Of a stretch of 64,000 bases of DNA, positions 2,677-51,283 are shown piece after piece. Every line of letters starts with the position of its first letter. Position 1 is the first letter of the stretch. The stretch comes from a bacterium (lineage in GTDB: Bacteria > Armatimonadota > Zipacnadia > Zipacnadales > UBA11051): the NCBI GenBank assembly GCA_021372615.1, contig JAJFUB010000013.1, forward strand, positions 62,001 to 126,000, given 5' to 3'. The notes under the pieces are model-generated. The model searched no databases. It worked only from the letters and a program-made list of their open reading frames with translations, and was not told where the DNA came from. Both the position numbers and the translations under genes were made by a program.

Positions 2677-2739
2677 CATGGCGCAGTGCGCAACTCCCGT
2701 CCGGCGCAGTTGGGCGGCGCGGGATCGACGAGGAGCCCT

Positions 2740-2812
2740 GACCGAGGCTTCCGGGCACGTGGGAGGAGGTGAGACGCCTCCCGTTGGGCCCGGGCCTCGG
2801 TCCGTCTTTGTC
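2740..2812 (+). terminator. Branched inverted repeat behind leuA, probable terminator
   Basis: GACCGAGGC (2740-2748) pairs perfectly with GCCTCGGTC (2794-2802), and an inner GGGAGG/CCTCCC pair (2761-2766, 2777-2782) sits inside. The following bases (CGTCTTTGT) are only weakly T-rich, so it may be a weak or factor-assisted terminator. Confidence 0.5.
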
Positions 2813-2838
2813 GGGTGCAGCCGTTCCCGCCCCTCGCA

Positions 2839-2867
2839 TTGACCGCGTGCCGGCAAACCGGTACAAT
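2839..2867 (+). promoter_or_regulatory. Promoter of the apgM operon
   Basis: TTGACC (2839-2844), 17-base spacer, TACAAT (2862-2867). A start point near 2874 gives a leader of about 48 bases to the apgM ATG. Strong match to a housekeeping promoter. Confidence 0.75.
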
Positions 2868-2921
2868 CGCCTTCGCTTAGCGCAGGTCCTGAGCACCCGA
2901 TGTCACCGAAGGAGCCCCCCT

Positions 2922-4184
2922 ATGTCAGACGCCGCCTCCAAGCCCAAGATCATCATCTTCCTGGGCGATGGCCTGGGCGACCGGCAGGTGCCTGCCCTGG
3001 GCGGCCGCACGCCCCTGGAAGCGCTCGACACTCCGCACCTGGATCACCTCGCCGCTGAGGGGCTGTGCGGGATGCTCGACCCCGTCTCGCCGGGCCGCCG
3101 GGTTGGCTCAGACACCGCTCACATGGCGATCCTGGGTTACGACCCGTTCAAGTACTACAAGGGACGTGGGCCCTTTGAGGCCAAGGGCGTCGGCCTGGAC
3201 GTGCTTCCCGGCGACGTGGCGTTCCGCTGCAACTTCGCGACCGTGGACGGGCGCAAGCTGGTGGACCGGCGTGCCGGTCGCATCAAGGACGGCACCGACC
3301 AGCTCGCGGCGGCCGTCAACGAGAAGGCCGGCCTCATTGACGGCGTGCAGTGCATCTTCAAGGAGTCGGTCGAGCACCGCGCGGCCCTGGTACTGCGCGG
3401 CGCCGGCCTGGACCATCGCGTGAGCGAAGTGGACCCCCACCACGAGGGCGTTGAGTACCCCGACTGCGCGCCGCTGCCCGAAGCAGCCAACGATCCGGCC
3501 GCGCAGAAGACGGCGCGGATCGTCAACGAGTGGGTGCGGCTGGCGCATGAGGCACTGGCAGCCCACCCAATCAACGCCGCGCGCGCGGCCGAGGGTCTGC
3601 CGCCGGCCAACGCCGCCTTGCCCCGGGGCGTAGGCACCGCCGTGGAGCTGCAGCCCTTTGCCGAACGGTACGGTCTCAGTGGCGCGATGATCGTGGAAGT
3701 GGATCTGGTCCGCGGTCTCGGGCAGTACCTGGCAATGGACGTAGTGGACGTGCCCGGCGCGACCGGTGGCAAGGACACCGACGAGATGGCCATCGCTGCC
3801 GCCGTCGTCGCGGCGCTGGACGATCACGACTTCGTGCTGGCGAACATCAAGGCTCCGGACCTGGGCGGCCACGACGGTGATGTCGGGCAGAAGATGGCGG
3901 GCATCGCGAAGGTCGAGAACGCCATCGGCTATCTGCTGGAGCGCCTGGACTTCACGCAGACTGTCATCATGGTGACCGGCGACCACTGCACGCCCGTCAC
4001 GTTCGGCGACCATACCGGAGACGCCATCCCAGCCGTGTTCTATGGCTGCGGCGTGCGCCCCGACGAGGTGCGGTCGTTCGGCGAGCGCCCGTGCATGCGC
4101 GGCGGACTGGGGCACTTCACGGGCGAAGACATCATGACGCTGCTTACGAACTTCACCGGCACGCAGGAGAAGTTCGGGGCCTGA
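2922..4184 (+). CDS. apgM: 2,3-bisphosphoglycerate-independent phosphoglycerate mutase, archaeal type
   Basis: Glycolytic and gluconeogenic enzyme interconverting 3- and 2-phosphoglycerate; a metal-dependent member of the alkaline phosphatase superfamily. 420 residues, typical of ApgM and shorter than GpmI. Visible motifs are the metal site FLGDGLGDR (13-21), the nucleophile region GSDTAHMAILGYDPFKYYKG (62-81) and the late metal-site stretch IKAPDLGGHDGD, with GDHCTP further on. The ATG sits behind AAGGAG and a clear promoter. It heads an operon with an exported protein, a TIM-barrel protein and a DUF4127 protein; no functional link to these is evident. Family assignment is secure. Confidence 0.9.
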   Translation: MSDAASKPKIIIFLGDGLGDRQVPALGGRTPLEALDTPHLDHLAAEGLCGMLDPVSPGRRVGSDTAHMAILGYDPFKYYKGRGPFEAKGVGLDVLPGDVAFRCNFATVDGRKLVDRRAGRIKDGTDQLAAAVNEKAGLIDGVQCIFKESVEHRAALVLRGAGLDHRVSEVDPHHEGVEYPDCAPLPEAANDPAAQKTARIVNEWVRLAHEALAAHPINAARAAEGLPPANAALPRGVGTAVELQPFAERYGLSGAMIVEVDLVRGLGQYLAMDVVDVPGATGGKDTDEMAIAAAVVAALDDHDFVLANIKAPDLGGHDGDVGQKMAGIAKVENAIGYLLERLDFTQTVIMVTGDHCTPVTFGDHTGDAIPAVFYGCGVRPDEVRSFGERPCMRGGLGHFTGEDIMTLLTNFTGTQEKFGA

Positions 4185-14125: not shown

Positions 14126-15277
14126 CTACCCGTTCCCCCCCTCCGTCGCCTCCCCCCCGTTCGGCGCGCTCGAGTCAATCGAGTCCATCAGTGAGTGCAG
14201 GAGCAGGTCCTGACTGGCTCCGAACTGCAGTAGGCTCATCTCCACGGTCGCCGCGGTAATAGCCGGCGGACCCTCCTCCCTGGCGCGCACGCCGGCCATC
14301 GCCAGGCCCCGACGGCACGCCAGCCGGAGCACCGTTACCAGCGCCCCGGGCGCTACCTGATACACCGTCGGGCTGGGCCTTTCCGTCCGCACCCCCGTGG
14401 CGTGGTCGAAGATGTAGTCGACGGTCGCCTCGGGAATGGTCACACCCAACTCGACCTCCAGCGCCTCGGCCGCCTGCGCGAGCATGGCGTACACCTGGTG
14501 TGGCGATAGCTCTGGCAGGACGATGTGCACAACGTCGCTGACCGTGGCCAGCAGGGCTGCCTCCATGGGCGTGGTGCAGAAGGCCACGCCGCGTAGGCCC
14601 GCCGGCAGGACACGCGCCAACTCCTGGACATGCCCGCGCGGGATCACCGGCACATGGCCACTGCACGTGAGGTCCTGCACGACTTGCGCCAGGCGTTCCT
14701 CGGTCCCCAGGGCACCGCTCTGTGTCTGCGAAGCGCTCAGTTTCAGCCAGTCGAGTTCCATGACCCGCCCGTGGCGCAGCTCCGGCAACACCGTCTCCCC
14801 CGCCAGCATCCGGCGAGCCAACTCGATCGCGACCGCGTGGCAGCCCGTACCGGGGAAGCCCTGGACGGCGACCAGGTGGTCCGCCGCCACGGCATCCGCC
14901 AGAGCTTGCACGACTTCCTCTCGCTCCACACAGGGCGTCGTAGGGAAGCAGGCGACGTGCAGGCCCCAGTCGCGGCAACAGCGCGCTGCGCCCGGACGGA
15001 TGCCCTTCAGCCGGGGCGGGGGTGCCGTCATGTCTGGCCCACCCAGCGCCAACACGCTCTCGACGAGGGCCTCGTCGGGAGTGGCGTAGTGGCCGATGGC
15101 TTTGCCGAGCAGATCGAGGGAGACGACATCCTCACCCTCGCGCGCAATGTCGAAGCCCCGGTGGTGTATGTCCCGGCAGGGCACACCGCGCAAGCGCAGT
15201 CGCGCGGACTCCTCGTCCATCTCAACCGAGACGCTGCCCATGGCGTCGAGCCACTCGATGTTGTGTGCGTTGAACAT
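14126..15277 (-). CDS. Clp-like AAA+ domain protein lacking the Walker lysine (pseudo-ATPase?)
   Basis: 383 residues. Residues 130-330 follow the layout of the first AAA+ module of ClpA/ClpB. A P-loop-like stretch GFPGTGCHAVAIELARRML (140-158) has Cys146 where Lys should be. LGTEERLAQVVQDL matches the Clp block around GEFEERL, but the following strand (GHVPVIPRG) has no DE Walker B. HIVLPELSPHQVYAMLAQ and LEVELGVTIPEATVDYIFDH match the Clp small-domain region. It probably cannot hydrolyse ATP and may be a structural or adaptor partner. GTG and two ATG starts lie close together; I took the ATG placed nine bases behind GGAG. Last gene of the operon, 50 bases behind the second PafA-like gene. 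Confidence 0.6.
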   Translation of the reverse strand: MFNAHNIEWLDAMGSVSVEMDEESARLRLRGVPCRDIHHRGFDIAREGEDVVSLDLLGKAIGHYATPDEALVESVLALGGPDMTAPPPRLKGIRPGAARCCRDWGLHVACFPTTPCVEREEVVQALADAVAADHLVAVQGFPGTGCHAVAIELARRMLAGETVLPELRHGRVMELDWLKLSASQTQSGALGTEERLAQVVQDLTCSGHVPVIPRGHVQELARVLPAGLRGVAFCTTPMEAALLATVSDVVHIVLPELSPHQVYAMLAQAAEALEVELGVTIPEATVDYIFDHATGVRTERPSPTVYQVAPGALVTVLRLACRRGLAMAGVRAREEGPPAITAATVEMSLLQFGASQDLLLHSLMDSIDSSAPNGGEATEGGNG

Positions 15278-15327
15278 GTCACCCATCTCCACATGCTGCC
15301 GAGCCTGCGCTCACCCCCGCCCTTCGG

Positions 15328-16956
15328 CTACGTGGGCTCCCGCTCGGTCAGCACCTGCTCAGCCGACACGCCGACCAGGTCGGCATAGCGCTGCATGAGC
15401 AGCCAGTCATCGCGTGTGACGGTGTCATTGAGCACGTTGCCCAGGTGGTGCATGTGTATCAACTGGCCCTCGTCGGTGCGGAGCTTGATGCCGATGCGGT
15501 CGAAGCCGGCGAAGCAGGGGGCCAGCCGGCCGGCGCTGCGCTCGGAGATCGCCGCATAGGCTTCCATGAGGCGCTGCCGCTTGGCCGAGCGAGTGGGCGG
15601 CACGTAGCTCGGGTCGGCGGTGTCTCCGAAGGGAGCGCGCTGCCAGGCGGCCACATGCGGGTACGCCTCCATCAGGCGCTCGTACAGGCCGTCGGCCATC
15701 GCGAAGTCGTGGTACAGCAGGTTCAGCCCGAACATCTCCCGCTGCAGTTCCATGGCCTCGGTCACGAAGGGCAGACGGGCGGCATCGCCGTCCGAGGTTG
15801 GCGCCGCGCTGGCGGTCTGCGCCACCGTGGACGGCTCGTAGCCATGCTCCTGGCACACCGGGCGGAAGACGAACTCGTGCTTGATGACAGCGTCCAGGCC
15901 CAGCAGCGGGCCGGACACTTCCCCGGGATAGCGCTCCAGCGCGCCGCGCAAGGCCGTCAGCTGCTCCAGGGCCCAGGCGACCCATGCCACCTGTGTCTTC
16001 TCCCCCTCTGTCAGTAGCCGGTCGTACAGCGCCAGTCGCAGGTCTAGCAAGTCCAGGTGCGTCCACTCCCTGCCGCCGATAGCCACGGGCTGGTGAATGG
16101 TCTCGCCGAAGCGCTGGCTGAGGGCCAGGCGAATGGTGAACCACGGATCGGGTGGCGCGATCTCCAGGCCGCGCTCCTTGAGGAGCCGCAGCACCTCGGC
16201 CGTGTGGTGGCAGCCCAAGTGGGCGTCCATGGCCACCGTGGCCGCCGACAGGGCCCGCTGGTAGGCCGACCGTGCCCATCCCGCCTCATAGTGGGTGTAG
16301 TGCAGCGTTTCGATCTCCTTCACCTCAAAGGCCGGTACCTCGCGTCCCGGCTGCAGGAGGCCCTTGAAGGAGATGCAGTCATTGCTGATATCGGTGACGA
16401 TGGCGCGGCTGCGGACCTCCCACTCCGGGCCGAAGTGCACACCGATGCCGCCCCAGACCTGGCAGGTGCCCAGGAAGTACAGCATCACCTGGCGCACGTC
16501 GTCGCGACGCAGGGCGGTGCGCAAGCCCGGCAGGCTCGGATCGTTGAGGCTGACATTCAGGTGCGAGCCGGCGAAGGTCAGGCGGCGGCGTCCGCCGCGC
16601 ACATAGCCGCAGGCCCCCAGCTTGATGCGCTCGCCCAGGCGCTCGCGGAGGATGCGCCGGTTCTGGTCCTGCGCGGCGGCTAGCTGGAAGGGGGAACCGC
16701 ACTCGGGGGTCTGCGTCTCCAGCAGGTCGCTCTCGCGGGACACGTCGTAGTAGAAGGCGCCCCCGCCACGCAACATGCAGTAACGCGGGAAGCGCCAACG
16801 GATCTCGTCGGTGGGCATGGTGTCGGTGTGGGGCATGGCACAGCGGCGAATGATCTCCGCGCGCTGTTCGGCGAGCAGGTGGCTGTTGCCACCGGTCGTG
16901 AGGTAGTGCTCGCAGTCATTGCCCATGGCCACTCGCGCCAGCGTCTCGGTGCTCAT
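15328..16956 (-). CDS. PafA/Dop-like protein 2 (Pup ligase/depupylase fold)
   Basis: 542 residues, close to the 450-500 of Pup ligase PafA and depupylase Dop, which share the glutamine-synthetase-like ligase fold. The N-terminal strand MGNDCEHYLTTGGNSH (11-26) aligns with the metal-binding G-x-E-x-E-x-G of PafA/Dop, with Asp14 for the first Glu. GGAFYYDVSRESDLLETQTPEC (from residue 65) matches the block around the catalytic Asp (here Asp71) and the TPEC. A region with FAGSHLNVSLND fits the later N/H block. ATG overlaps the stop of its paralogue (ATGA) and is preceded by GGGAG. Whether it ligates, cleaves or is regulatory cannot be decided; the altered first metal ligand could mean a changed activity. 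Confidence 0.65.
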   Translation of the reverse strand: MSTETLARVAMGNDCEHYLTTGGNSHLLAEQRAEIIRRCAMPHTDTMPTDEIRWRFPRYCMLRGGGAFYYDVSRESDLLETQTPECGSPFQLAAAQDQNRRILRERLGERIKLGACGYVRGGRRRLTFAGSHLNVSLNDPSLPGLRTALRRDDVRQVMLYFLGTCQVWGGIGVHFGPEWEVRSRAIVTDISNDCISFKGLLQPGREVPAFEVKEIETLHYTHYEAGWARSAYQRALSAATVAMDAHLGCHHTAEVLRLLKERGLEIAPPDPWFTIRLALSQRFGETIHQPVAIGGREWTHLDLLDLRLALYDRLLTEGEKTQVAWVAWALEQLTALRGALERYPGEVSGPLLGLDAVIKHEFVFRPVCQEHGYEPSTVAQTASAAPTSDGDAARLPFVTEAMELQREMFGLNLLYHDFAMADGLYERLMEAYPHVAAWQRAPFGDTADPSYVPPTRSAKRQRLMEAYAAISERSAGRLAPCFAGFDRIGIKLRTDEGQLIHMHHLGNVLNDTVTRDDWLLMQRYADLVGVSAEQVLTEREPT

Positions 16957-18596
16957 GACAGGCTCCCTTCTTCATACGGTCCCATCAGCATGGGGTACAT
17001 GCCGTGCCCGGCGCCGCCCCCGGACGGGCTGGACGGTGCCGGCGCTGACACCACCTTGCCCCCGCTGCGGACGTGGTGCTGCGTCCGGTAGCGGTGGGTG
17101 TAGCTCAACTCGGTGCGGTAGGGGGCGGCCGGGCCGTCGAGGATCTCGTCCAGGCTCAGCCCCTCCAGGCCCCCGATCCGCGCTAGTGAGCAATCCTCAG
17201 GCGTCGGCAGCGACAGGCGGGCGCTGCGACGCGGCAGGTTCAGACCATCCCAGTCGCACATCTGCAGCCGCTCGCCCTCAGTGATGCAGCGCTGAGCAAT
17301 ATGGCCCCGCAGGTACGCCCGAGTGACCGTCGGCGGCGTGGTGAACGCCTCGGCGAGCTGGAGGGGCGCGAACGGCGGGGCGTGTCCCAGGACGCGGGCG
17401 ATGTGCTGACCCTCCGGCTCAAAGAGCGCCGGCTCGATCTGGTGCCACAGCACGTCCAGCTCGCGGGCGGTGCGGTTGTCGGCGGCCTCGAACGTCATCC
17501 TCTTCGCAGCCCACTCGACGCCGCTGGCGAAGAGGTCGCGGCGCCGCAGCGCGTCTATGACCTGCCGGAGCCAGCGGTCGTAGCGCCGCCAATGCGGCAG
17601 AGCCTCCGCCGCGTGTTCATCGTCCTCCAGGACCGCCGCGATGGTCGCCAGCCCCTGCTCGGCGAGGTCCAGCGCGTTGGCGGAACGGCCGTCGTTGAGT
17701 GGCACGGGCAGCCACGGATCGCGGTTCATCACGGCTGCCGCCAGCAGCGGCTGGCGCAGCGACAGATCCGGATACGGCCGCACGGGAGCGGGGCGCAGCA
17801 GGGCGTAGGTGGCGGCCTGCACCAGCGCGATGCGCAGTTCCTGCGTTGGGCTGACAGTCGTGTCGTGCGGGCCGATGCAGTGGTTGCGTGTGCGGCTGGC
17901 GTCGTCGTTCAGTGTTTCGCGGTTGCCGCGCAGGTTCAGGCTGATCGTGCGCTGGAAGGTCGTCTCGTGCGACGGGAAGAGCGTCTCCATGCTCTCCAGC
18001 CGCTGTCCGCACAGGAAGGCGGTCTCGTCGTAGTCGTCCCCCACCGCTCCGCTGCCCAGCAGTACTGCCGCCGCGGTCACGAACGGCACATAGGCGCGGA
18101 GGACCGTGGAGAAGCACTCGCCCACAAGCAGCCGCCAGTCGTCGCGCCCCACCTGCACATTGATATGTCCGGCTCGGTAGACATAGCCCGTGCCGCGTGA
18201 CTTGCGCGAACGGTTCATGAGCCAGACCAGGGCCTCCTGGGGACATTCGGCGGCGGCCTGGGCCAGCATGTACTCGGTGGCGCACAGATGCAGATAGGCC
18301 TCGTGCGGGTCCAGCGTCTCGCACGAGGTGACCTCGGGCTGGTCCAGGTCAATGTAGACGGCGCCGCCGTCGGGCAGGGGCAGCAGGTCAGCCGACGCTC
18401 CCCAGTAGCCCCCCGGCGTGCTCAGCCCGTAGCTGGTCCGTACCGGCTCATCACCGAATACACGCTCGTTGAGGGCCTGTAGTACGTGACGCGCCCCCTG
18501 GGCCTGCGGGTCTGGCCAGCGCTGTGTCGTCTTGGTGACAGCCAGATGCTCCCATTCGTTGCCGAGGATCGGCAGGACACAGGTCTCGTTGCTCAT
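16953..18596 (-). CDS. PafA/Dop-like protein 1 (Pup ligase/depupylase fold)
   Basis: 547 residues. The first strand LPILGNEWEHLAV (8-20) keeps the E-x-E metal pair (Glu14, Glu16) of PafA/Dop. GGAVYIDLDQPEVTSCET (78-95) matches the segment with the catalytic Asp (Asp83). RGTGYVYRAGHINVQV (135-150) fits the SYG-x-HENY block. VPFVTAAAVLLGSGAVGDDY (170-189) matches the PFLVTRQ..TGSGRVG block, and SRTRNHCIGPHDTTVSPTQE resembles the late R-x-H-x-x-x-x-D region. In known systems these enzymes join, or remove, the C-terminal Glu of Pup to lysines. The paralogue downstream shares the G-N-x-x-E-H start. I chose the ATG behind GGGGAG, not the GTG three codons earlier. Starts 18 bases after the AAA ATPase gene. 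Confidence 0.7.
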   Translation of the reverse strand: MSNETCVLPILGNEWEHLAVTKTTQRWPDPQAQGARHVLQALNERVFGDEPVRTSYGLSTPGGYWGASADLLPLPDGGAVYIDLDQPEVTSCETLDPHEAYLHLCATEYMLAQAAAECPQEALVWLMNRSRKSRGTGYVYRAGHINVQVGRDDWRLLVGECFSTVLRAYVPFVTAAAVLLGSGAVGDDYDETAFLCGQRLESMETLFPSHETTFQRTISLNLRGNRETLNDDASRTRNHCIGPHDTTVSPTQELRIALVQAATYALLRPAPVRPYPDLSLRQPLLAAAVMNRDPWLPVPLNDGRSANALDLAEQGLATIAAVLEDDEHAAEALPHWRRYDRWLRQVIDALRRRDLFASGVEWAAKRMTFEAADNRTARELDVLWHQIEPALFEPEGQHIARVLGHAPPFAPLQLAEAFTTPPTVTRAYLRGHIAQRCITEGERLQMCDWDGLNLPRRSARLSLPTPEDCSLARIGGLEGLSLDEILDGPAAPYRTELSYTHRYRTQHHVRSGGKVVSAPAPSSPSGGGAGHGMYPMLMGPYEEGSLS

Positions 18597-18614
18597 GTTG
18601 CACACTCCCCGGGT

Positions 18615-20318
18615 CTAGCTCGCATTACGGAAGCGCATCCGGACCTCGCGGGCAGAGGTCGTGTCCAGCAGTGCCTCGCGGTCCACGTGCAGACCGGTCA
18701 CGCGCTGGGCTTCCTCGCCCGACAGCCCCAGCGCCACGACCAGGTCCTCGGGTGCCAGGAACGCCACATTCGCGTAGAGCTGGCGCTTCAGTTCGCCGGC
18801 GAGGCTGAAGGCGCTCAGGCAGGTGTCGTCGTAGTACGCAGCCCGTGCCGCTGCCTGTACGCTCTGTTCCAGCGTGCGTCCGCTGACCGCCTCGGAGGCC
18901 TGGTAGACCCGCCCATGGTCGCTGCTATCGAACACCAGGCGGATGAGCGGGAAGTCCAGGCCGCACAAGGCCATCTGAGCCGTCGTCTCCGGCTCGTCGT
19001 CAAGCTGCACCCGCGACAGGTACGCAGTCAGGATGCGCACGGCCGTCTCGCGCTCCGGCAACCCCACCGCCACCGTCTCGGAGATGCGGCTCAGCAATGC
19101 GGCATCCAGCCGCGACTGGTAGTTGCTGGTGAAGGCCAGGATGCGGATCGGCTCGCCGGGCTCGCGCGGACGGCCCAGCATGTCGGCGATCACCGCGAAA
19201 ATGCGCGAGGTGACATCGGCGCTGGTGGAGTCCATGTGGGCCCCGCGCTTGCGCATGATCGCGTCCACCTCGTTCATCACGATCAGCGTGTTCTGGTCGC
19301 CGCCGGCGGCCAGCGCCTCGCGCATCAGCTTCTCACTGCGGCCGAACCACTCAGAGGTGATGTTGGACGTGTCTATGCGGATGGTCTGGTAACCCAGGGC
19401 CGCCACCTCACGCGCCAGATGGCGTTCCGCGATGGTCGTCTTGCCCGTGCCGCTCGGGCCGGCGAACAGGATGGTCTGCGGCAGGCCTATCCCGTAGCTG
19501 GCGGCTCGCTCGGGGTCGCGCATCACCTTGATGATCTGGCCGATGCGCTGCAGCACTGAGGGCGAGTAGATGAAGTTGTCCTCCTCCGCCGGGAGCGGCG
19601 TGAACACGTTGTAGAGCGGGTTGCGCCGCGTCTCGGCAGCCTCGTCGGCCTGGGGCGCAGGATACGCGATGCGGATCTTGCCGTCCGTCACGCGCACCCG
19701 GTCCCCGGGCGTCAGCTCCGCCAGGTGCGGCTCCAACTCCGCCGAGGCGATGGCCACCACGCTGTCTTCGGCCAGCACGCCGTCGCGCAGCTCCAACTCG
19801 ACATGGATCCGCCCCTCGCCCGCAGGCTGGACGGCCTTCAGTCGCGCTGAGACCAGCCCCACATGGTCGTAGCCGTACGAGCCGAAGTAGGCGGCATCGC
19901 CCTCAGCGCCCAGTGCGAACTGCACGGTCTCGCCCAACGACGGCGCGCGGGCATCCTGCGGCAGGATGATGAAGTCGGCATCGTCAATCCAGATGGCCAC
20001 CAGCGGCTCGCCGTGGATGATCTCCTGCATGATCCGGGTGACGCGCCCGATACGGCGGGCCGACGAGGCCTTCACACGATCGAGTTGCTCGCGCACGGCC
20101 TCGTACTCAGCTCGGGCGTCGGCTACCTGTTGGGTGTAGCTGTCAAAGGCCTCGCAGATGCGGTCTACCGCGTCTGGCGGGACTTCGGCCGCCAGCAGCG
20201 AGCCCCGGAGATGGTCGCCAATGCCCACCGGGTCCAGGGGGAAATCCCGCTGCGAGGCCGCCGCCAGGTGCTGGTTGATGATGCTGGCGATATCGGCTAT
20301 GAGGGTCCGTCGTGTCAT
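18615..20318 (-). CDS. Proteasomal-type (Mpa/ARC-like) AAA ATPase
   Basis: 567 residues laid out as in Mpa/ARC: an N-terminal helical region with coiled-coil-like segment about 60-87, a beta-rich double OB-like region about 105-220, one AAA module 275-425 and a helical end. Walker A is GPSGTGKT (287-294), Walker B LIVMNEVD (345-352) with Asn349 replacing the usual Asp, and sensor-1 region FTSNYQSRLDAALLSR. In Mpa this ring unfolds pupylated proteins into the 20S proteasome. Here the C-terminus (MRFRNAS) lacks the GQYL-like docking tail, and no prcA/prcB lies in the window. ATG overlaps the RING stop (ATGA). It may unfold or extract tagged proteins without a 20S core. Confidence 0.85.
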   Translation of the reverse strand: MTRRTLIADIASIINQHLAAASQRDFPLDPVGIGDHLRGSLLAAEVPPDAVDRICEAFDSYTQQVADARAEYEAVREQLDRVKASSARRIGRVTRIMQEIIHGEPLVAIWIDDADFIILPQDARAPSLGETVQFALGAEGDAAYFGSYGYDHVGLVSARLKAVQPAGEGRIHVELELRDGVLAEDSVVAIASAELEPHLAELTPGDRVRVTDGKIRIAYPAPQADEAAETRRNPLYNVFTPLPAEEDNFIYSPSVLQRIGQIIKVMRDPERAASYGIGLPQTILFAGPSGTGKTTIAERHLAREVAALGYQTIRIDTSNITSEWFGRSEKLMREALAAGGDQNTLIVMNEVDAIMRKRGAHMDSTSADVTSRIFAVIADMLGRPREPGEPIRILAFTSNYQSRLDAALLSRISETVAVGLPERETAVRILTAYLSRVQLDDEPETTAQMALCGLDFPLIRLVFDSSDHGRVYQASEAVSGRTLEQSVQAAARAAYYDDTCLSAFSLAGELKRQLYANVAFLAPEDLVVALGLSGEEAQRVTGLHVDREALLDTTSAREVRMRFRNAS

Positions 20319-20881
20319 GATTCGCTCCACCCTTCTTGCCCCTTGAGCATGAAGCTCTCGCGTTGCCGGTCGGTGCGGCAGATGGCGCAGGAGCAGACAG
20401 GACATGCGGTCGGCTCCTCACCTTGCAGACATTGCGGATGGAAGGCCCAGGAGCAGGCCGGGCAGTAGACCACCTCGTCACCGGCGTGCAGTGGTTGCCC
20501 GTCGTCCATACAGGCCGCGCACAGCACGGGCCCGCTCGCGACGTCGTCCGGCGCCCAGAGCGGCTCAGTCCGCTCGGGGTCGAGGAAGTCCTGGGTCACG
20601 TAGCGCCAGACCTGCGCGCCACACTCGATCGTGTCGCCGTTGACGACGCGGCAAGTGCCCGCCAGCAGGGGCAGACCGCGCACACGTGCGAGGCCCGGTG
20701 GGGTTAGCAGTACATGGCCCCCGTCGTGCCCCACCAGCACCGGGACATCCACCGACTCGCCTGGCTGCAGGCGCCGGAGCAATCCGGCCGGCTCGTCGCC
20801 ACTTAGCACGACCGCGGCGTGGCAGGGCAGGCCGATGGACTCGACGGCCTCGTTGTCCTCCAGGCGCATCAACCGAGGCAT
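20315..20881 (-). CDS. Prokaryotic RING-type zinc finger protein (candidate E3)
   Basis: 188 residues. The C-terminal part has eight zinc ligands in C4HC3 order: C121-x2-C124, C140-PA-C143, H148, C151, C160-PV-C163 (VYCPACSWAFHPQC at 138-151), the cross-brace layout of RING/PHD-like fingers and of the Prok-RING families described next to bacterial E1/E2 genes. Two more Cys follow at 165 and 168. Residues 1-110 are beta-rich (LAGTCRVVNGDTIECGAQVW resembles an FHA-like sandwich edge) and may bind substrate. Overlaps the JAB gene by 13 bases and the AAA gene by 4. Probable E3-like bridge between E2 and target; this role is inferred from context. Confidence 0.8.
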   Translation of the reverse strand: MPRLMRLEDNEAVESIGLPCHAAVVLSGDEPAGLLRRLQPGESVDVPVLVGHDGGHVLLTPPGLARVRGLPLLAGTCRVVNGDTIECGAQVWRYVTQDFLDPERTEPLWAPDDVASGPVLCAACMDDGQPLHAGDEVVYCPACSWAFHPQCLQGEEPTACPVCSCAICRTDRQRESFMLKGQEGWSES

Positions 20882-21819
20882 GATTCGACCTCCTGGTCGT
20901 CTGTGACGGGCTCTGTCTCCGGGCCGGCCTCGATGTGTAGGTTCACCTGCTGCAGGGAGCCATTGATCCAGCGGAAGCCGGCAGCCGTCGGCTGTTGGCC
21001 GACACTGGCGGCGATGATGAACAGGCCCTCGGCGCCCGCCGACCACAGACACAGGTCCCAGTCCATCGGGGAGGGGGCGATCAGGCCGTAGGGGTGTGTG
21101 TGGCAGGGCCCCAGGATACGGAAGGGCGGGCCCATGGCCGCCACGCTGTCTTGGGCATAGGCCCAGTCCTCGGGGCTGAACTGGACGGTCGCGGCCCCGG
21201 CGCCCTCAGCCGCGCCAGGCGGAACGATGACATCGGTCACGACCGGCACGCCGCCCGGCCCCAGGACCCCGACCGAGAACGCGCGCTGCTCGGCCTCGTC
21301 GGTCATCGCCACCAGTTGGCTGATGACCGCGCCGGCCTGCGCCGTGAGCATGGCCTCCCTGGCCTTGACCGAGTAGTCGCAGTCCGGCAGCACGTAGTCG
21401 AACACCGGCACCTCGGGCACGGCCTGCTGGTCCACATACAGGGCAGCGGTGGCACGGTCGCCGGGCAAGAAGATGTTGTGATGGCTGGAGAGAGCCTCGA
21501 CCAGGGCCTTGGTCTCCATCAGCAGAACGGCCGACATGGGGAGGTCGCGTGCGGTCGCCACGGTGCCATCGCTCGCTCGCACCTCGATCCGGCAGGTGAC
21601 GAGACGGAGGCGCCCTGACGCCGTAGTCTGTCCCTGGCAGGCGACGCGCAGTTGCAGGGGTGTGCCACCGGCGAGGCTGCTGCCCAGTTCCTCGAGGGCC
21701 ACCCCCTGCGCGGCCAGCTCCAGGCGTCGCCACAGGACCTCCGGCGCCATCAGGAAGGTCGTGGCGACATCGGGATTCGTCTGGTTGTGGATCGTCACAT
21801 GAAGGCCGTTGCCTGCCAT
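20869..21819 (-). CDS. JAB/MPN (JAMM) metallopeptidase, deubiquitinase-like
   Basis: 316 residues. Residues about 150-290 form a JAB domain with a complete zinc motif: CHTHPYGLIAPSPMDWD gives His240, His242, Ser250 and Asp253 (H-x-H-P-x6-S-x2-D), with Glu177 as likely catalytic Glu. In related systems such enzymes trim Ubl precursors or remove Ubl from targets. The N-terminal 140 residues are a separate beta-rich domain that I do not recognise. GAGGAG lies ahead of the ATG; 68 bases separate it from the Ubl gene. All catalytic residues appear intact, so an active peptidase is expected. Confidence 0.88.
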   Translation of the reverse strand: MAGNGLHVTIHNQTNPDVATTFLMAPEVLWRRLELAAQGVALEELGSSLAGGTPLQLRVACQGQTTASGRLRLVTCRIEVRASDGTVATARDLPMSAVLLMETKALVEALSSHHNIFLPGDRATAALYVDQQAVPEVPVFDYVLPDCDYSVKAREAMLTAQAGAVISQLVAMTDEAEQRAFSVGVLGPGGVPVVTDVIVPPGAAEGAGAATVQFSPEDWAYAQDSVAAMGPPFRILGPCHTHPYGLIAPSPMDWDLCLWSAGAEGLFIIAASVGQQPTAAGFRWINGSLQQVNLHIEAGPETEPVTDDQEVESCLG

Positions 21820-21887: not shown

Positions 21888-22160
21888 CTACGCGGCGGTC
21901 AGGCGCGGGATCACCGTGACCTGACCGGCGGTCAGCAGGTCGCGCACGCGCTCATCCTGCAGGCTCTCGCTCGGGCGCAGGAGCTCGCCCGACTCGGCCC
22001 GCAACTGGTAGTCCAGGGGCATATTGCGCTGACTGCGCGACGGCAGTTGCAGCCGCCACACCGCCTCCGCCGCGACATCGGCGATGGTCGCGGCCGCACC
22101 CAGCTCTACGCTGGCTCGGCGTTGACCCGTCAGGTCTCGGCACTCAACCGTGTTGCTCAC
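21888..22160 (-). CDS. Ubiquitin-like (YukD-type beta-grasp) protein
   Basis: 90 residues with a beta-grasp pattern: strand VECRDLTGQRRASVEL, helix ATIADVAAEAVWRLQL, then LDYQLRAESGELLRPSESLQ and a last strand TVIPRL. The YQL...G..L....SL order is that of YukD/ubiquitin-like proteins. The C-terminus is PRLTAA: there is no diglycine, and no long tail for the JAB enzyme to remove. GTG start behind AAGGAGG; its first codons overlap the end of the 202-residue protein gene. Likely the protein activated by the E1 of this operon, but the C-terminal Ala makes the chemistry uncertain. Confidence 0.65.
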   Translation of the reverse strand: MSNTVECRDLTGQRRASVELGAAATIADVAAEAVWRLQLPSRSQRNMPLDYQLRAESGELLRPSESLQDERVRDLLTAGQVTVIPRLTAA

Positions 22161-22752
22161 GATGGTTCCCTCCTTCCTGTTGCTGAGGTGCTCGCCACCA
22201 GCGACCCCAGTTGGCAGCCAGCCCGGGGTGGTTGCGCAGCACCTCGAGAATGGGGCGCAGTTCCACCGCGATGTACCGCAGAGCTGCGTCCACCAGCTCC
22301 ACGTCCTCGTCGGTGGGCTGCAACAGCGGAATGAAGATGCTCGCCTTGGTGCAGGCCTGATTGACGGCGATAAGGTGTGTCTGCGTGTTGGCGGCCGTGA
22401 CCCAGAGATGCCGCACCGTGCCTCCTATCTCGGGCGGGGTCAGCGGGATCCAGCACTCCAGACAGTCCTCGTGCACAATGACCTGGGCCTTCACGCTGCC
22501 GCCGCACAGCCGCCGCAGCGGTTCGGCCAGCCTGTCGCGCCACGCCGCGCCGATGGCCTCGCGCTCCACGGCGCTGAGTTCCGGCCCCTTCCCGCCGGCG
22601 AGCCACCGCGCCGCGCACTTGTCCTCGCGCCAGCTGAGCGGGCCATCCACCGCGTGTCCCGTGTGCGTACGCTTGGACCACCGGCGCTCTTGGGGCAGCG
22701 TGTGCCGTGTGAACTCACCTCGGGTTGTGGCTTGTGCCTGAAGCTGCGACAT
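22144..22752 (-). CDS. Unknown protein encoded between E2-like and Ubl genes
   Basis: 202 residues, no family recognised. Start behind AAGGAG, 16 bases after the E2-like gene; its end overlaps the Ubl start, so it is translated as part of the set. The N-terminal 40 residues are basic and polar. From 60 on it alternates helices (LSAVEREAIGAAWRDRLAEP) with strands (AQVIVHEDCLECWIPLTPPE, VRHLWVTAANTQTHLIAVNQ) and ends in a Gln/His-rich tail. Three Cys occur in the middle. No membrane segment. The fixed place between E2 and Ubl suggests a conjugation cofactor or substrate adaptor; this is inference only. Confidence 0.6.
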   Translation of the reverse strand: MSQLQAQATTRGEFTRHTLPQERRWSKRTHTGHAVDGPLSWREDKCAARWLAGGKGPELSAVEREAIGAAWRDRLAEPLRRLCGGSVKAQVIVHEDCLECWIPLTPPEIGGTVRHLWVTAANTQTHLIAVNQACTKASIFIPLLQPTDEDVELVDAALRYIAVELRPILEVLRNHPGLAANWGRWWRAPQQQEGGNHREQHG

Positions 22753-22768: not shown

Positions 22769-23245
22769 TCACCGCAGGGCGTGCGCATCGAAGGGCAACT
22801 CGCCCCGGGCCTGGGCCGCCGTGTACCAGCGGGCGGCGTGGGCGTTGTAGATCCCCTCGGACATGGCCCACGACGCCCCGGCGATAATATCGAACACCAG
22901 GGAGACCACGGACCACAGCGGGATGACCGGCCCGCGCTCAAGCTGTTGCTCGAGGTTCGCGCAGATGATGCGCGGCGGGTCGGGTCGGATGTTGGGGTGG
23001 AAGGGCCGCTCACCGTCCTGCGGCTCATAGACGGCCATGAGACCATGCAGCTTCTCGGCCCCCACGAACCGGACGACATGGCGGGGCACGATCTCAATGC
23101 TGCCTTCGGGCCGTTCCACCGCGCCCAGGCAGTCGAAGGCAACCAGCAGGTGCATCGGCCCTCGCTCGATGATCTCGGCGCGCGTGCGCGGATCGTTGAT
23201 GAAGTCCACCGTCTCGGCTATCTCGCGTTCGGTGCGGTCAGTCAT
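22769..23245 (-). CDS. E2-like (UBC-fold) conjugating protein
   Basis: 158 residues, the size of a minimal E2. FHPNIRPDPPRIICANLEQ (82-100) reproduces the E2 core: HPNI at 83-86 and a Cys ten residues after the Asn (Cys95), the place of the catalytic Cys in HPN-x-x-x-G-x-x-C-L. PLWSVVSLVFDIIAG (109-123) matches the W-P..-i..vl..i..ll helix behind the active site. The preceding sheet (EIVPRHVVRFVGAEKLHGLM) fits the UBC meander. It would carry the Ubl as a thioester on Cys95. The ATG overlaps the E1 gene by 8 bases; an earlier in-frame start would overlap more and lacks family support. Confidence 0.75.
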   Translation of the reverse strand: MTDRTEREIAETVDFINDPRTRAEIIERGPMHLLVAFDCLGAVERPEGSIEIVPRHVVRFVGAEKLHGLMAVYEPQDGERPFHPNIRPDPPRIICANLEQQLERGPVIPLWSVVSLVFDIIAGASWAMSEGIYNAHAARWYTAAQARGELPFDAHALR

Positions 23246-24326
23246 CCTGCACCAGCCCCTCGACTGCAATGGTCACGGCTGTCTGTGGTTGACTGGGTGT
23301 ACGCCCCCGGCCGCGCAGCAGCAGCAGATCGCGCGCGGGTAGTCCTAGTGAGGCAGCGCTGGCGTCTGGCCGTAGCTGGTCCAGGGCCAACTCGCTCGTC
23401 CAGCCTTCCAGGGCCACCACGGGTGACTGGCAGTGCGGGCACGGGTTGCGGAAGACGCGCGGATTGGGGCGCCTGCCGCAGGCGCACTCGCTGCCCAGCG
23501 CCAGGGGTCTGAGGAACTCCAGGCGGGCCGTACCCTCGGTGATCCCCACGTCCCGCGCCACGGCCGACAGCACGGGCAGGATCGGCTCGGCCGCACCCAA
23601 CGTCACCGTCGCCTCGGGCCAGGGGGTCACCCGGGCGCAGTCGAGGAGACAGTGCGGGTCGCGGGTGAGGCGGCTGGCAAAGGCCTCACAGGCCGGGCCG
23701 AGGGCCAGGGTCGTGTCCACGCCCGCCGGGGCCCCGATGGCGCTGAGCGTCAGGGCCGCCGCGGCTTGGCCCTCGGCCGCCCCGTAGGGCATCGTGAAGG
23801 CGTCGCCGCCCTCGGCCACGGCCTGCTCGCAGGAAAAGCCGTCTTCGTTGAGGATGGATGAGATGAAAGCCTCCCCGCTGCCGCACAGAGGACAGGGCCC
23901 AGCGGCCAGGGGGAAGAGGAAGGAGCGCACTTGGGCGGCCCCCTCGCTGACATGACAGGTGAGGAGAGGCAGGGGGTGGTTCGGTGTGGCCAGACGCAGG
24001 CAGATCCCGGTCACGCGGCGCGTGGTCGCGGGGCGGTCCGTGGCGAGCACGATCAGCTCCGCTTCGCGCCACTCCTGTCCGCCGACGACGTCCTCGATCC
24101 GGCCGCAGCGCGCCGACAACTGATCTGGGCGACCGAGGGCCGCGGCCTGCTGCTGCAGCGCCAGCACCTTTGGCTTGCCCACATCGGCCGGGCCGTAGAC
24201 CCGCTCCGTGGTGCGTGCCGTGACAGGCTTGGGGTCGGCGGCGATCAGCTTCCACCCCTGGCGCAAAAGGGCCAGCACGATGGTCGTGCCTGGTAGTCCG
24301 AGGCCGGCGCTGATCGCCTTGTGCAT
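23238..24326 (-). CDS. E1/ThiF-like Ubl-activating enzyme
   Basis: 362 residues. The N-terminal Rossmann fold has G-L-G-L-P-G (8-13), Asp31 in LIAADPKPV, the ATP-contacting Arg42 in ARTTERVYG and Lys53 in DVGKPKV, then VLATDRPATTRR: the ordered signature of MoeB/ThiF/E1 enzymes. GPCPLCGSG may hold the thioester Cys or a zinc ligand. Residues near 300 carry C-A-C ... C-P-H-C, a zinc-ribbon-like element, followed by a small C-terminal domain that could present E2, like a UFD. It would adenylate a Ubl C-terminus with ATP. GGAGGAG precedes the ATG, 53 bases behind the Pup-like gene. Family secure, pairing with the local Ubl inferred. Confidence 0.85.
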   Translation of the reverse strand: MHKAISAGLGLPGTTIVLALLRQGWKLIAADPKPVTARTTERVYGPADVGKPKVLALQQQAAALGRPDQLSARCGRIEDVVGGQEWREAELIVLATDRPATTRRVTGICLRLATPNHPLPLLTCHVSEGAAQVRSFLFPLAAGPCPLCGSGEAFISSILNEDGFSCEQAVAEGGDAFTMPYGAAEGQAAAALTLSAIGAPAGVDTTLALGPACEAFASRLTRDPHCLLDCARVTPWPEATVTLGAAEPILPVLSAVARDVGITEGTARLEFLRPLALGSECACGRRPNPRVFRNPCPHCQSPVVALEGWTSELALDQLRPDASAASLGLPARDLLLLRGRGRTPSQPQTAVTIAVEGLVQDD

Positions 24327-24379: not shown

Positions 24380-24550
24380 CTACTCGCCTTCGTGGTTGGA
24401 TTGGGCCAGATCGTGGCGCTCGTGGGCCGTGTTGCGGAACTGGTCTACGATCGCCAACGGCTGGAGCCGGGGCATGGATACGAAGCGTTGCTCCCGGTTG
24501 TCGCCGTCGTCCCCCCTAGAGGGGCCTTCGTGTTCGCGGAAACGCTCCAT
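24380..24550 (-). CDS. Small Pup/UBact-like protein ending in Gly-Glu
   Basis: 56 residues, first gene of the operon. Strongly charged and probably disordered N-terminal half (MERFREHEGPSRGDDGDNRE), then a possible amphipathic helix (PLAIVDQFRNTAHERHDLAQ) and the C-terminus NHEGE. Size, polarity, helix position and the terminal Gly-Glu are those of Pup (GGE/GGQ end) and of the Gram-negative UBact proteins, the substrates of PafA-type ligases. Two PafA/Dop-like proteins are encoded downstream in the same operon. AAGGAGG sits at ideal distance from the ATG; an in-frame start 11 codons earlier has no such site. No diagnostic catalytic motif exists for this family, so the call rests on these features plus context. 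Confidence 0.55.
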   Translation of the reverse strand: MERFREHEGPSRGDDGDNREQRFVSMPRLQPLAIVDQFRNTAHERHDLAQSNHEGE

Positions 24551-24660: not shown

Positions 24661-24865
24661 CACCCTTGTTGGGCACTGTCTCCATTCCGGACAGGTAGGC
24701 TGTACCGCCCGCGTCGTGGACCAATTGTGCGGCAAGACGCGCTACAGTCAGCAATCATCTGAATGCTGCAACGTGCACAGGAGAGGCAGCAAGGGTCGAG
24801 GACCGGGCAGGCGGCGTCTTCGTGTGCCGGGAAGCTCCCCGGCGCCAATCCGTGGGAGGTGTACG

Positions 24866-26200
24866 ATGGCGACGGACATCTTCGCACAGAGGGAACTCCG
24901 CGAACGCATCACGCACTGCTATCAGGAGCTGTACGGGGACTACTGGGGTGGACTGTGGCGCAACTTCTACGCCCGCAGCGGGGGCGTCTGTCTGGTAGGC
25001 ACTTACGGGGACGTCCGCCTGCGCGACGCCTTCGCCGTGCGGGAGATCATCCAGGTTCTACCCCTACGTGAGATGGCAGTGCTGGTGATGGACGACGCCG
25101 AGGCGCGTTTCCCGGGGGATGTCGTCATCATCGCTCGCCCCGACCTCTTCGCCAGCCGCCATGCCAAGCGCGTGCTGGCCGACGCCCACCAGGTCCGCCA
25201 CTTTTTCCATCTGGGGCGCTACGCCTTCATCAACGTCACCGACGGGAAGTGCTACTGGCGGGCCCGCCAGGGGCCAATGATGCGCGAGTACGGGTTAGTG
25301 GCACGGCGCGTCCGTTCCAACGGCCACCACGTCATCACCGTCTCCGGCCTCAGTCGCATCGGCACATGGGCGGCAGCCAAGAGCTGCAGCGACATGCACT
25401 ACCTCGATGCAGTAGAGAGCCTACTGCAACCGCGGCTGCAGCAAGTGGCTGCCGAGAGCGGCAAGGACCCGGCCAACATCGGCTTTGAGGTGCTGGTGGA
25501 GGTCACGTACGAAGTCGAGAAGCAGGAGAAAGCCTACCTGGCGCAGTTTGACCTGGATGCCACCCTCTATCCGCTGATCACCTGCGAAGGACCGCCCCCC
25601 GCTTACTACGAAGGATCCAGTGGCGATGTCGTACGCGAAGAGGATCTGATGATCCGCCCCGTTGCCGTCGCCACGGAGTTGCAGACGCCGCGCGCCGAGC
25701 ATGTGGTCATCGCCCTGGTCAAGGGCGACTGCCCCGCGAACGCCACGACCGACCCGAACCTCATCACACACTTCGTAGTGGATGGCATAGACCTGGTGGA
25801 GAAGGGGACGAACCGGTTCAACATGCTGCTGCAGGCCTGGTATCGGGGACCACGGAGCGAGAAGGAGTTCGAGAGCGGGGAGATCAAGCCGAGCCTGCAC
25901 TACCCCGCCAAAGACGCCCGCACCATCCGCTGCCAGTTCAACCGCGAGGCCAACCGCTTTGGTGTGCCGGGGGAGCTGGCCCGCTGGTCCGGCCACCAGT
26001 ACTACATCAACACGATCTCACAGCACTGGCTGCCGGCCTGGGAGCACGTAGACATGCCTGGGCTGACCAACCCGCCTCCGGGGCTGTCGCCAGTGGCGCA
26101 GACGCCGGCCGGTGCTCCGACAACTCCCCGCAAGCGGCGTCCCAACACGCCCCGCGACGAGGTCACCTGCCCGCCGACAGGCACCGATCCACTCGGTTAG
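24866..26200 (+). CDS. Unknown protein divergent from the Ub/Pup-like operon
   Basis: 444 residues, family not recognised. GGGAGG precedes the ATG; upstream in-frame starts lack a ribosome site. Residues 1-150 alternate strands and helices (GGVCLVGTYGDVRLRDAF, EMAVLVMDDAEARFPGDVVI), and HHVITVSGLSRIGTWAAAKS (about 151-170) resembles a sensor-like Rossmann edge. The middle has YEVEKQEKAYLAQFDLDATL. The last 70 residues are Pro-rich and disordered, ending TGTDPLG. No signal peptide or membrane segment. The overlapping divergent promoters suggest it is co-regulated with the Ub/Pup operon, as a regulator, substrate or effector; which one cannot be told. Confidence 0.7.
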   Translation: MATDIFAQRELRERITHCYQELYGDYWGGLWRNFYARSGGVCLVGTYGDVRLRDAFAVREIIQVLPLREMAVLVMDDAEARFPGDVVIIARPDLFASRHAKRVLADAHQVRHFFHLGRYAFINVTDGKCYWRARQGPMMREYGLVARRVRSNGHHVITVSGLSRIGTWAAAKSCSDMHYLDAVESLLQPRLQQVAAESGKDPANIGFEVLVEVTYEVEKQEKAYLAQFDLDATLYPLITCEGPPPAYYEGSSGDVVREEDLMIRPVAVATELQTPRAEHVVIALVKGDCPANATTDPNLITHFVVDGIDLVEKGTNRFNMLLQAWYRGPRSEKEFESGEIKPSLHYPAKDARTIRCQFNREANRFGVPGELARWSGHQYYINTISQHWLPAWEHVDMPGLTNPPPGLSPVAQTPAGAPTTPRKRRPNTPRDEVTCPPTGTDPLG

Positions 26201-26229: not shown

Positions 26230-27030
26230 TCAGGACGTCTCGTCCGCCCCGAGCATGTCAAGCAGCTCGAGGTCCGGCTGGAGGTCCTCGCAGAAGCGGT
26301 TGGCTAGCGCCTCCGCTACTTCCTCATCCTGCCGGGTGTAGATGGTGACGTTCTCGTGCCGCTGATCGCCCGGGTCGAAGGGGGCCGTGTAGGGTTCCTC
26401 GTTCAGCCACTCACCGTCTCCGGGCGGTAGGCACAACACCTTCCCGTCCGGCCCCAGCTTGTTCTCTAGACTGAGCATTAACACCGGTCGCGGACCCCGC
26501 GAGGACGGGATGAAGGCCGGCACGTGCAGCAGGCTCTCGCACCGTCCGCTACGGAAGAACGGCGCCTCACGGGTGCGGCGATAGCGCTTGGCCTTGTGCT
26601 GGGTGATGTGGTAGCCCCCCAGGTTGATGAGCTTGCCCGACCGCAGCGGCTCGGTGGTGAGCGAGGTGTCCACCAGTGGAGCTGTGCACGTGGCGGTCGT
26701 GAGTTGCCGACGGCGCCGTGTCTCCAGGTCCTGGAAGCGGGCAGCGGCCGGTAGCAGCAGGCATTCCGCATCCTCCACCAGCCAGATGGCCGCCAACTCG
26801 CTGGGAATGGCGTCGAAGGCCTCCTCGCACAGCCTACCCAGCACGTCCTCGAGCACGCGGGGGAGGAAGAAGTGGCGCAGGCCGTTCGTCTCCAGCAGCG
26901 AGAACTGGCGCGGCGGGTCGGCCGCCTCCCAGTTGGCGATGGTGCGCGCCGACAGGCCCAAATCCACGGCGATCTCCGCCTGCGACAGCCTGGTGCGCTT
27001 GCGCAGTTGGGTGAACTGGTCCGAGTTCAT
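26230..27030 (-). CDS. Cro/C1-type HTH regulator with sensor-like C-terminal domain
   Basis: 266 residues. The N-terminus FTQLRKRTRLSQAEIAVDLG plus LSARTIANWEAADPPRQ (residues 6-42) is a Cro/C1 helix-turn-helix. Residues 60-240 are a mixed alpha/beta domain (AIWLVEDAECLLLPAAAR, LINLGGYHITQHKAKRYRR, RPVLMLSLENKL) resembling a GAF-type sensor; ligand unknown. GGAGG lies ahead of the ATG chosen, six codons inside the longer frame. It is the last gene of the radical SAM operon (18 bases from the next gene) and converges with the 444-residue gene, so it probably regulates this region. Confidence 0.8.
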   Translation of the reverse strand: MNSDQFTQLRKRTRLSQAEIAVDLGLSARTIANWEAADPPRQFSLLETNGLRHFFLPRVLEDVLGRLCEEAFDAIPSELAAIWLVEDAECLLLPAAARFQDLETRRRRQLTTATCTAPLVDTSLTTEPLRSGKLINLGGYHITQHKAKRYRRTREAPFFRSGRCESLLHVPAFIPSSRGPRPVLMLSLENKLGPDGKVLCLPPGDGEWLNEEPYTAPFDPGDQRHENVTIYTRQDEEVAEALANRFCEDLQPDLELLDMLGADETS

Positions 27031-27048
27031 CAGCGTCACCTCCAGCAT

Positions 27049-44622: not shown

Positions 44623-44699
44623 CGCGCGGTGGAGCAGTCCGGTAGCTCGCAAGGCTCATAACCTTGAGGTCAGAGGTTCGAATCCTCTCCGCGCTACCA
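44623..44699 (+). tRNA. tRNA-Met (CAT), initiator type, CCA encoded
   Basis: 77 bases. Acceptor stem CGCGCGG pairs with CCGCGCT except for the first pair, C1 opposite T72: the mismatch that marks initiator tRNA-fMet. D-arm GAGCAG...GGTAGCTC matches the initiator form. Anticodon CAT at 44657-44659 in a CAAGG/CCTTG stem (only two of the usual three G-C pairs), T-arm GAGGTTCGAATCCTC and ACCA end. The minus-strand serine recombinase gene reads into its 3' half, which marks this tRNA as the likely integration site of the downstream element. Confidence 0.9.
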
Positions 44700-46365: not shown

Positions 46366-46528
46366 AGGAGCCCCTCTGGCTGCCTCTCGCGGACCTGCGA
46401 TGTGCACTCCCCCTGATTATACAACGTGACGGCGATTATGTCTTGATGGCAATGGCCTGACAGCGCCGCGCCTCCAGTACCGTGCCGCGGGGAAGGCGGC
46501 TGCACGGCTACTTCTGCCAGCCGTCCAT

Positions 46529-46637
46529 CACCCCTGTTGCAGCGTTACAGGGTTACACCCCTGTTGCAGAACTCCTCCCGCGAGGAGTAGTAGCCGCAAG
46601 TTCTGGAACAGACCCCTCAACCTGTAACCTTGTAACC
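46529..46637. repeat. Iteron-like direct and inverted repeats
   Basis: CACCCCTGTTGCAG occurs exactly twice (46529-46542 and 46556-46569, 27 bases apart). GGTTACA (46551-46557) is answered by two TGTAACC copies (46622-46628, 46631-46637), and ACTCCTC/GAGGAGT forms a hairpin in between. The block sits between the primase-helicase and recombinase genes, where an element origin or regulatory site would be expected. Confidence 0.45.
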
Positions 46638-46639
46638 CC

Positions 46640-48751: not shown

Positions 48752-48838
48752 GAGTTCCCTCGCGGTAGGGGAGGGATCAAAGCGGGGGCCGCACCGCGAG
48801 GAAGACGGCCCCACGCATCGATCCAAAGTTCTGCAGAG

Positions 48839-49084: not shown

Positions 49085-49180
49085 TCGCTCTCGAAAACGA
49101 AGAAACCGGACACGTGGCCCCTCGTGCGACAAAGGCCAGTGTCCGGCTTCTATCCTGCCGACTGTGCTGCAGGAAGTGAA

Positions 49181-51220: not shown

Positions 51221-51283
51221 GGCCCACCGCCCTGCTCCAGGTTTTGACTACTGACCAGGTCCCTCTCGCGGCCGATCTGTTGG

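Follow-up and report, generated by a model that had tools for sequence, protein, structure and literature searches.

A diverged PafA/Dop-like gene pair in a ubiquitin-like operon of an uncultured Armatimonadota bacterium

Ubiquitination and pupylation are regarded as separate, convergent inventions. An uncultured Armatimonadota bacterium appears to combine these two normally separate tagging chemistries within a single gene cluster. The cluster lies in a window of 64,000 nucleotides (the whole stretch analysed; contig JAJFUB010000013.1, positions 62,001 to 126,000) of a 6.4 Mb metagenome-assembled genome (MAG), here called G000. Two adjacent genes, P2 and P1, encode PafA/Dop-like proteins, most likely descended from one enzyme of the Dop side and one of the PafA side. 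The point worth following is that both tagging modules occur in one operon and that, in addition, there is a branch without canonical Pup. A first-pass annotation had recognised the PafA/Dop-like pair and missed its membership in an operon of E1, E2, ubiquitin-like modifier (Ubl), JAB, RING and AAA genes. The pair is located as follows:

16953..18605, minus strand: P2, PafA/Dop-like protein assigned to the Dop side, E-x-E (550 residues; internal ATG at 18596; protein 1 of the first-pass annotation)
15328..16956, minus strand: P1, PafA/Dop-like protein assigned to the PafA side, D-x-E (542 residues; protein 2 of the first-pass annotation)

Family membership and ancestry of P2 and P1

Both open reading frames (ORFs) proposed as PafA/Dop-like proteins with different metal ligands are present at full length and overlap by 4 bp (ATGA). 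Read from the ATG at 18596, the count used earlier, P2 is MSNETCVLPILGNEWEH with Glu14/Glu16 and with Asp83 inside YIDLDQPE; counting from the GTG adds three (E17, E19, D86). P1 is MSTETLARVAMGNDCEH with Asp14/Glu16 and with Asp71 inside YYDVSRESDLLETQTPEC. P2 matched the Pfam family PF03136 (Pup_ligase) at 6.4e-30, over the cut-off, scored 71 bits with the NCBIfam Dop model and 52 bits with the PafA model, and found solved Dop structures as its best matches in the PDB. As judged by its Pfam match, P2 is a PafA/Dop homologue.

The placement of P1 drew on relatives from a survey set of 291 Armatimonadota genomes. PF03136 matches were found in 188 of them, canonical PafA/Dop-type genes being present across most of the phylum, and some genomes carry a further divergent PafA/Dop-like pair besides the canonical genes. 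Sister cassettes of the order RING-E1-E2-orf-Ubl-JAB-AAA-sA-Pup-sB, not all of them complete on their contigs, were detected in five genomes with such a further pair (G052, G102, G050, G261 and G033), where sA and sB denote the two PafA/Dop-like proteins. In all five, a Pup of 60–70 residues lies between sA and sB and ends in QRGGQ, QQSGE, QQGGE, DGGQ or QRGGQ, while the Ubl is a beta-grasp protein with a tail ending in Ala-Gly, in some cases with a short extension beyond it, which JAB might cut off. The sister cassettes thus unite ubiquitin-like and pupylation modules in one cassette. A further genome, G112, has an sA/sB pair and a third copy in a row (L096, 9451-14123) with no Pup, AAA or E1/E2 gene adjoining; its Pup sits in that genome's canonical locus.

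Alone, P1 gave a marginal value of 0.015 with PF03136, below threshold, and weak matches to this model were seen in two of the three P1 orthologues. Compared by hhalign, a profile of three P1 sequences scored 63.5 with sB (E 2.6e-7), 53 with Dop, 46 with PafA and 44 with sA, against at most 20 for reversed or unrelated control profiles. Profile comparison and gene order thus identify P1 as a PafA/Dop homologue too, and the family identity given in the first-pass annotation holds for both proteins. P2 and P1 thereby widen the known sequence range of PafA/Dop proteins; Pfam and NCBIfam miss P1.

The P2 profile scored 231 with sA, 156 with Dop, 141 with sB and 115 with PafA. In a search with an sA/P2 profile, cassette members (complete genes at 1e-173 or better, the partial G020 gene at 3e-60) stood clearly apart from canonical Dop (9e-91 or weaker). 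Among the NCBIfam models, sA of G052 preferred Dop (278 bits vs 214 for PafA) and sB of the same genome preferred PafA (213 bits vs 191 for Dop), with canonical controls behaving as expected. Furthermore, the gene order AAA-sA-Pup-sB of the five sister cassettes matches AAA-P2-P1 in the window. In a maximum-likelihood tree, sA, sB and PafA each formed a single group, and P1 and P2 formed long separate branches outside the canonical clades; the row labelled Dop_Nono in the trees is an actinobacterial PafA. Because the tree does not statistically separate P2+sA from P2+sB, the assignment of P2 as the orthologue of the Dop-side enzyme sA, and of P1 as that of the PafA-side enzyme sB, rests on gene order and profile scores. 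Since the pair corresponds in this way to a Dop-side and a PafA-side enzyme, the earlier proposal of a ligase/eraser pair in a new branch is plausible as to ancestry, also in view of the long separate branches; the metal-ligand difference offered as its marker did not stand, as described below. Recent duplication as the origin of P1 and P2 was rejected: there is no direct similarity between them (BLAST E 0.08), and each is nearer to a different older branch. A search of viral contigs and plasmids for relatives returned nothing useful, the sole plasmid match being an actinobacterial PafA that served as outgroup.

Active-site residues of P2 and P1

In alignments with canonical Dop and PafA, Asp83 of P2 and Asp71 of P1, earlier placed at the PafA catalytic base, both fell on the invariant Asp of the YxD motif, the position of Dop Asp94 (PMC8599861). 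Altogether P2 retains E17, E19, Y84, D86, E91, H147, N149, R202, R219, N224, R226, R240 and H242 (numbered from the GTG), and P1 retains D14, E16, Y69, D71, E80, E85, C86, H132, N134, R205 and H219. The catalytic Asp and the acidic ligands of strands 2–3 are thus present in both (P2 D86, E91; P1 D71, E80, E85), as is the strand-4 pattern [HQ]x[NH] (P2 H147-x-N149; P1 H132-x-N134). The third strand-2 acid of P2 is E96 in the window and Cys in G023. R226/H242 of P2 and R205/H219 of P1 correspond to the pair that holds the phosphate in Dop, R227/H241 (PMC8599861), the P1 pair with the same 14-residue spacing as in Dop. With the sites chosen after the fact, nine of nine in P1 (Y69, D71, E80, E85, C86, H132, N134, R205, H219) were invariant over three genomes against a background of 32% (P about 2e-5), and 13 of 13 selected core sites in P2 were invariant over two genomes against 52% (P about 2e-4).

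Strand 1 varied more. Its sequence across the three genomes is GNEWEH, GVELEH and GKENEH in P2, and GNDCEH, GCDEER and GADIEC in P1. The G-N-x-x-E-H strand reported as common to both proteins is therefore found in this genome, its shared N and H being peculiar to it, and G-x-[E/D]-x-E is what is conserved. The motif GhExE has been described as absolutely conserved in the PafA/Dop family (PMC2588565); P2 retains E-x-E as G-[NVK]-E-x-E, with a relaxed h position. In the sister cassettes the first ligand is Asp in the AAA-adjacent, Dop-side sA (5/6) and Glu in the PafA-side sB (7/7), the reverse of the window. The Glu/Asp swap is thus constant inside each orthologous group and reversed between cassette types, and for this reason it cannot mark ligase or eraser. 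As a functional marker, E-x-E versus D-x-E was consequently discarded.

A Dop-loop before strand 2, for which a search had been suggested, was looked for in P1 and P2 and found in neither: the stretch from E(xE) to Tyr spans 66 residues in P2 and 54 in P1, compared with 84–89 in Armatimonadota Dop, where it carries W[ND]Yx2ExxRxDxRGF, and 45–59 in PafA.

The operon, the absent Pup and a candidate tag

P2 and P1 belong to a compact minus-strand operon with intergenic gaps of at most 69 bp and many overlapping genes. Its order is 56-aa ORF, E1, E2, orf202, Ubl, JAB, RING/PHD, AAA, P2, P1 and orf388. Besides the pair, it comprises:

24380..24550, minus strand: candidate tag gene, 56-aa ORF (MERFREHEG...LAQSNHEGE), first operon gene, upstream of E1, with C-terminal Gly-Glu
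23238..24326, minus strand: E1-like (ThiF) activating enzyme (PF00899 9.4e-7; aligns with sister E1s that match ThiF at about 1e-27)
22769..23269, minus strand: E2-like conjugating enzyme (FHPNIRPDPPRIICANL; HPN motif, Cys downstream of it)
22144..22752, minus strand: orf202, conserved cassette protein (same place in G023 and G020, 25-27% identity)
21888..22160, minus strand: YukD-like Ubl with C-terminus IPRLTAA (PF08817 1.2e-4)
20869..21819, minus strand: JAB/JAMM-type protease (HTHPYGLIAPSPMD; PF14464 0.018; motif aligned with a sister over the PF01398 cut-off)
20315..20881, minus strand: RING/PHD-like zinc protein, possible E3 (weak PHD/Prok-RING_1/RING matches)
18615..20405, minus strand: proteasomal-type AAA ATPase (PAN/Mpa-like), tail RFRNAS (PF00004 2e-19; NCBIfam PAN 6.6e-18)
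14126..15292, minus strand: orf388, ClpB-like, degenerate Walker A (GFPGTGCHA); conserved, the G020 orthologue (34%) directly following P1

E1, E2, Ubl and JAB genes, together with the RING gene, thus share one operon, E2 and JAB being identified by motif and alignment and statistically weak in the window alone. The HPN motif of the E2 is conserved across four aligned genomes, and a profile search of the PDB returned almost exclusively E2s, at a weak E (0.04). The Ubl matched MoaD, ubiquitin and SAMP1 in the PDB; it is 52–58% identical in G023 and G020, and all three share the PRLTAA end, to which G023 adds RSGT. The Cys/His pattern of the RING/PHD protein is common to its sisters, one of which matched RING at 2.7e-5. 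In G020 the JAB gene (L152, about 2640-3458) reads HTQP, not HTHP, and may be inactive or affected by an assembly error.

Among the 291 genomes, the P1 family was found in three only: G000, G023 and G020. G023 carries E2-orf-Ubl-JAB-RING-AAA-P2-P1 on one contig. In G020 the cassette is divided between two contigs, the first running from E1 into the beginning of P2 and the second holding the remainder of P2 together with P1 and orf388. Both genomes show E-x-E in P2 and D-x-E in P1. The P1 gene of G023 (L015, 6164-7182) is split by a frameshift near 6300, on a low-coverage MAG contig. A scan of genome contigs with two short patterns returned only G023 and G020, a result that is no evidence of absence in other phyla.

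Since P2 and P1 overlap (ATGA), no Pup gene fits between them, and Pup is likewise absent there in G023 and G020; relative to the sister cassettes, the Pup gene has been lost from its place. Because even canonical Pups of Armatimonadota escape the Pfam Pup model, a home-made Armatimonadota Pup profile was used. It recovered independent Pups in G047, G112, G102 and G261 (1e-5 to 1e-12) and nothing significant in G000, G023 or G020, the best G000 value, with 150 of 267 candidates scored, being E 0.1, at noise level. The idea of a cassette without any tag, drawn from the missing Pup, was weakened by the ORF at 24380-24550. This ORF has a strong Shine-Dalgarno sequence (GAAGGAGGGAAGACATG), a codon score of 0.24 (0.23–0.34 in the operon genes) and GC1/2/3 of.72/.39/.82. 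As a Pup homologue it was rejected, a shuffle test giving p 0.2–0.6 as against 0–0.012 for positive controls; its position, its ribosome-binding site and its codon bias make it a tag candidate.

The cassette AAA proteins are of the PAN/Mpa type, the best match of the G052 sister being the proteasome ATPase pup_AAA (1.4e-81). Their tails are mostly R[YF]xxxA-like (RFRNAS, RFRVVA, RYMSLA, RYLHIA, RYLHIA), those of G261 and G033 being different. Walker B of the window AAA (18615-20405) reads IVMNE, with Asp changed to Asn, and that of G023 reads IIFDE. In G050, a sister-cassette genome that is 99% complete, a proteasome-type search gave a single HslV-like match. An Ntn-hydrolase-like protein of 236 aa (MSLAVALEGADGIVLAADSR; L086, 1029-1739, G000 contig 113) with a weak proteasome-family match is unlinked to the cassette.

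Elsewhere in the window, two genes are possible regulators of the operon: a divergently transcribed 494-aa protein (24716-26200, plus strand) with no Pfam or NCBIfam match, and an HTH (HTH_31/HTH_3) protein (26230-27048, minus strand). Positions 44656-58578 form a mobile island with two serine recombinases, a Prim-Pol/D5 primase-helicase, an N6/N4 DNA methylase and a ResIII protein with a weak TnsA-like domain.

Possible functions and relation to known systems

We regard it as an evenly balanced proposition that P2 and P1 are diverged descendants of the Dop-side and PafA-side enzymes of a two-module tagging cassette and now act on a changed substrate. In the ubiquitin-like module, E1 would activate the beta-grasp Ubl, its transfer would fall to E2 and the RING protein, and its trimming or removal to JAB. 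In the pupylation-like module, a PafA-like enzyme would phosphorylate a C-terminal Glu on its side-chain carboxylate at the expense of ATP and link that carboxylate to lysine, and a Dop-like enzyme would deamidate the tag and reverse the bond. Both modules would feed one proteasomal-type AAA unfoldase. In the window lineage, where canonical Pup no longer has a gene between the two enzymes, P1 would be ligase-like and P2 amidase-like with a changed substrate, for which the 56-aa protein ending in Gly-Glu would be the best candidate. Because the ATP/Mg ligands, the catalytic Asp and the phosphate-binding residues are retained, we infer that both proteins still perform ATP-dependent carboxylate-amine chemistry. 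Somewhat more tentatively, the locus may be a dual-tag operon in which E1-E2-RING-JAB and a ligase/amidase pair serve one AAA ATPase, with Pup replaced by an unrelated Gly-Glu tag or the pair turned onto the Ubl.

Several observations weigh against descent from a Dop/PafA pair with a changed substrate. P1 by itself has no significant match in Pfam or the PDB, its profile scores are no higher with PafA than with Dop (46 vs 53), and it departs from GhExE, with D-x-E in all three genomes, for which reason we file it as neither PafA nor Dop. In the tree, P2+sA received support of 75/78, P2+sB was not rejected (AU p 0.36), and long branches meet. No sequence similarity links the candidate tag to Pup, and the G020 and G023 contigs stop short of the region upstream of E1. 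A 20S proteasome was not found in the window genome, where the search gave HslV and one weak Ntn-hydrolase match (8e-4). Finally, AlphaFold2 models from 3-row alignments were unusable (mean pLDDT 35.0 for P2 and 39.8 for P1).

That P1 and P2 have been turned from a Pup-type tag to the Ubl pathway, for instance to (de)modify Ubl, E2 or AAA with an amino acid or peptide, we consider unlikely. The strong divergence of both enzymes would fit such a switch, as would the lack of intergenic space for a further gene from E1 to orf388 and the best Pup-like value of E 0.1 in the genome, far from the positive controls. Pup, however, is ligated via the side-chain carboxylate of its terminal Glu (PMC2588565), whereas the Ubl ends in ...RLTAA with no terminal Glu or Gln, and the first-look filter for Pup had scored only part of the G000 candidates. 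It is less probable still that one or both proteins are non-catalytic, as structural or regulatory pseudo-enzymes serving the AAA ATPase as scaffolds or substrate receptors: the invariance of the core Mg/ATP/phosphate residues (9/9 in P1, 13/13 in P2, at sites chosen after the fact) speaks against this, even though P1 has lost many Dop/PafA-conserved residues outside the core, in P2 of G023 the third strand-2 acid is replaced (E to C), and neighbours are partly degenerate (HTQP in the G020 JAB, N-E in Walker B of the window AAA). Ordinary pupylation, with P1 and P2 as PafA and Dop of this organism acting with a standard Pup and proteasome, is very improbable. P2 does exceed the PF03136 cut-off, and genes for pupylation are widespread among the Armatimonadota (188/291 genomes). 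Genome searches, however, turned up neither canonical PafA/Dop nor Pup nor a 20S proteasome; a Dop-loop is lacking in both proteins, both lie outside the canonical clades, and their genes are located in an E1/E2/Ubl operon.

In the open literature we found no description of a combined ubiquitin-like and pupylation cassette, key subscription papers being outside the scope of this search. Bacterial operons of E1, E2, JAB, YukD-like Ubl and RING genes were reportedly the subject of a 2011 RING paper by Iyer, Burroughs and Aravind. The bacterial ubiquitin-like operons of these authors (PMC1779556) resemble the cassettes in grouping E1, HPN-type E2, JAB, Ubl and RING-like genes into a single operon. 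The cassettes have in addition a proteasomal AAA ATPase and a pair of PafA/Dop-like enzymes, and the sister cassettes also Pup. With the Pup-proteasome system of actinobacteria and others (PMC2588565, PMC8599861) the cassettes share PafA/Dop enzymes with glutamine synthetase (GS)-like catalytic residues, an adjoining proteasomal AAA ATPase and, in the sisters, a Pup with a Gly-Glu or Gly-Gln end between the two enzymes. They differ from it in forming one operon with E1, E2, RING, Ubl and JAB and in having no 20S genes in the cassette, and the window differs further by its lack of Pup between the enzymes and of a Dop-loop and by its extreme divergence. Single Planctomycetes homologues of PafA/Dop (PMC7947786, PMC2588565), one of which carries transmembrane segments in Rhodopirellula (PMC2588565), are likewise divergent and non-actinobacterial; they occur, however, as one copy per genome and not with E1/E2/Ubl. 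In the sister cassettes, the genes for both modifiers and for both sets of enzymes lie beside one for an Mpa/PAN-like ATPase, so that cross-talk between ubiquitination and pupylation becomes directly testable, and the window branch would be a natural experiment on a PafA/Dop pair after loss of its original tag gene.

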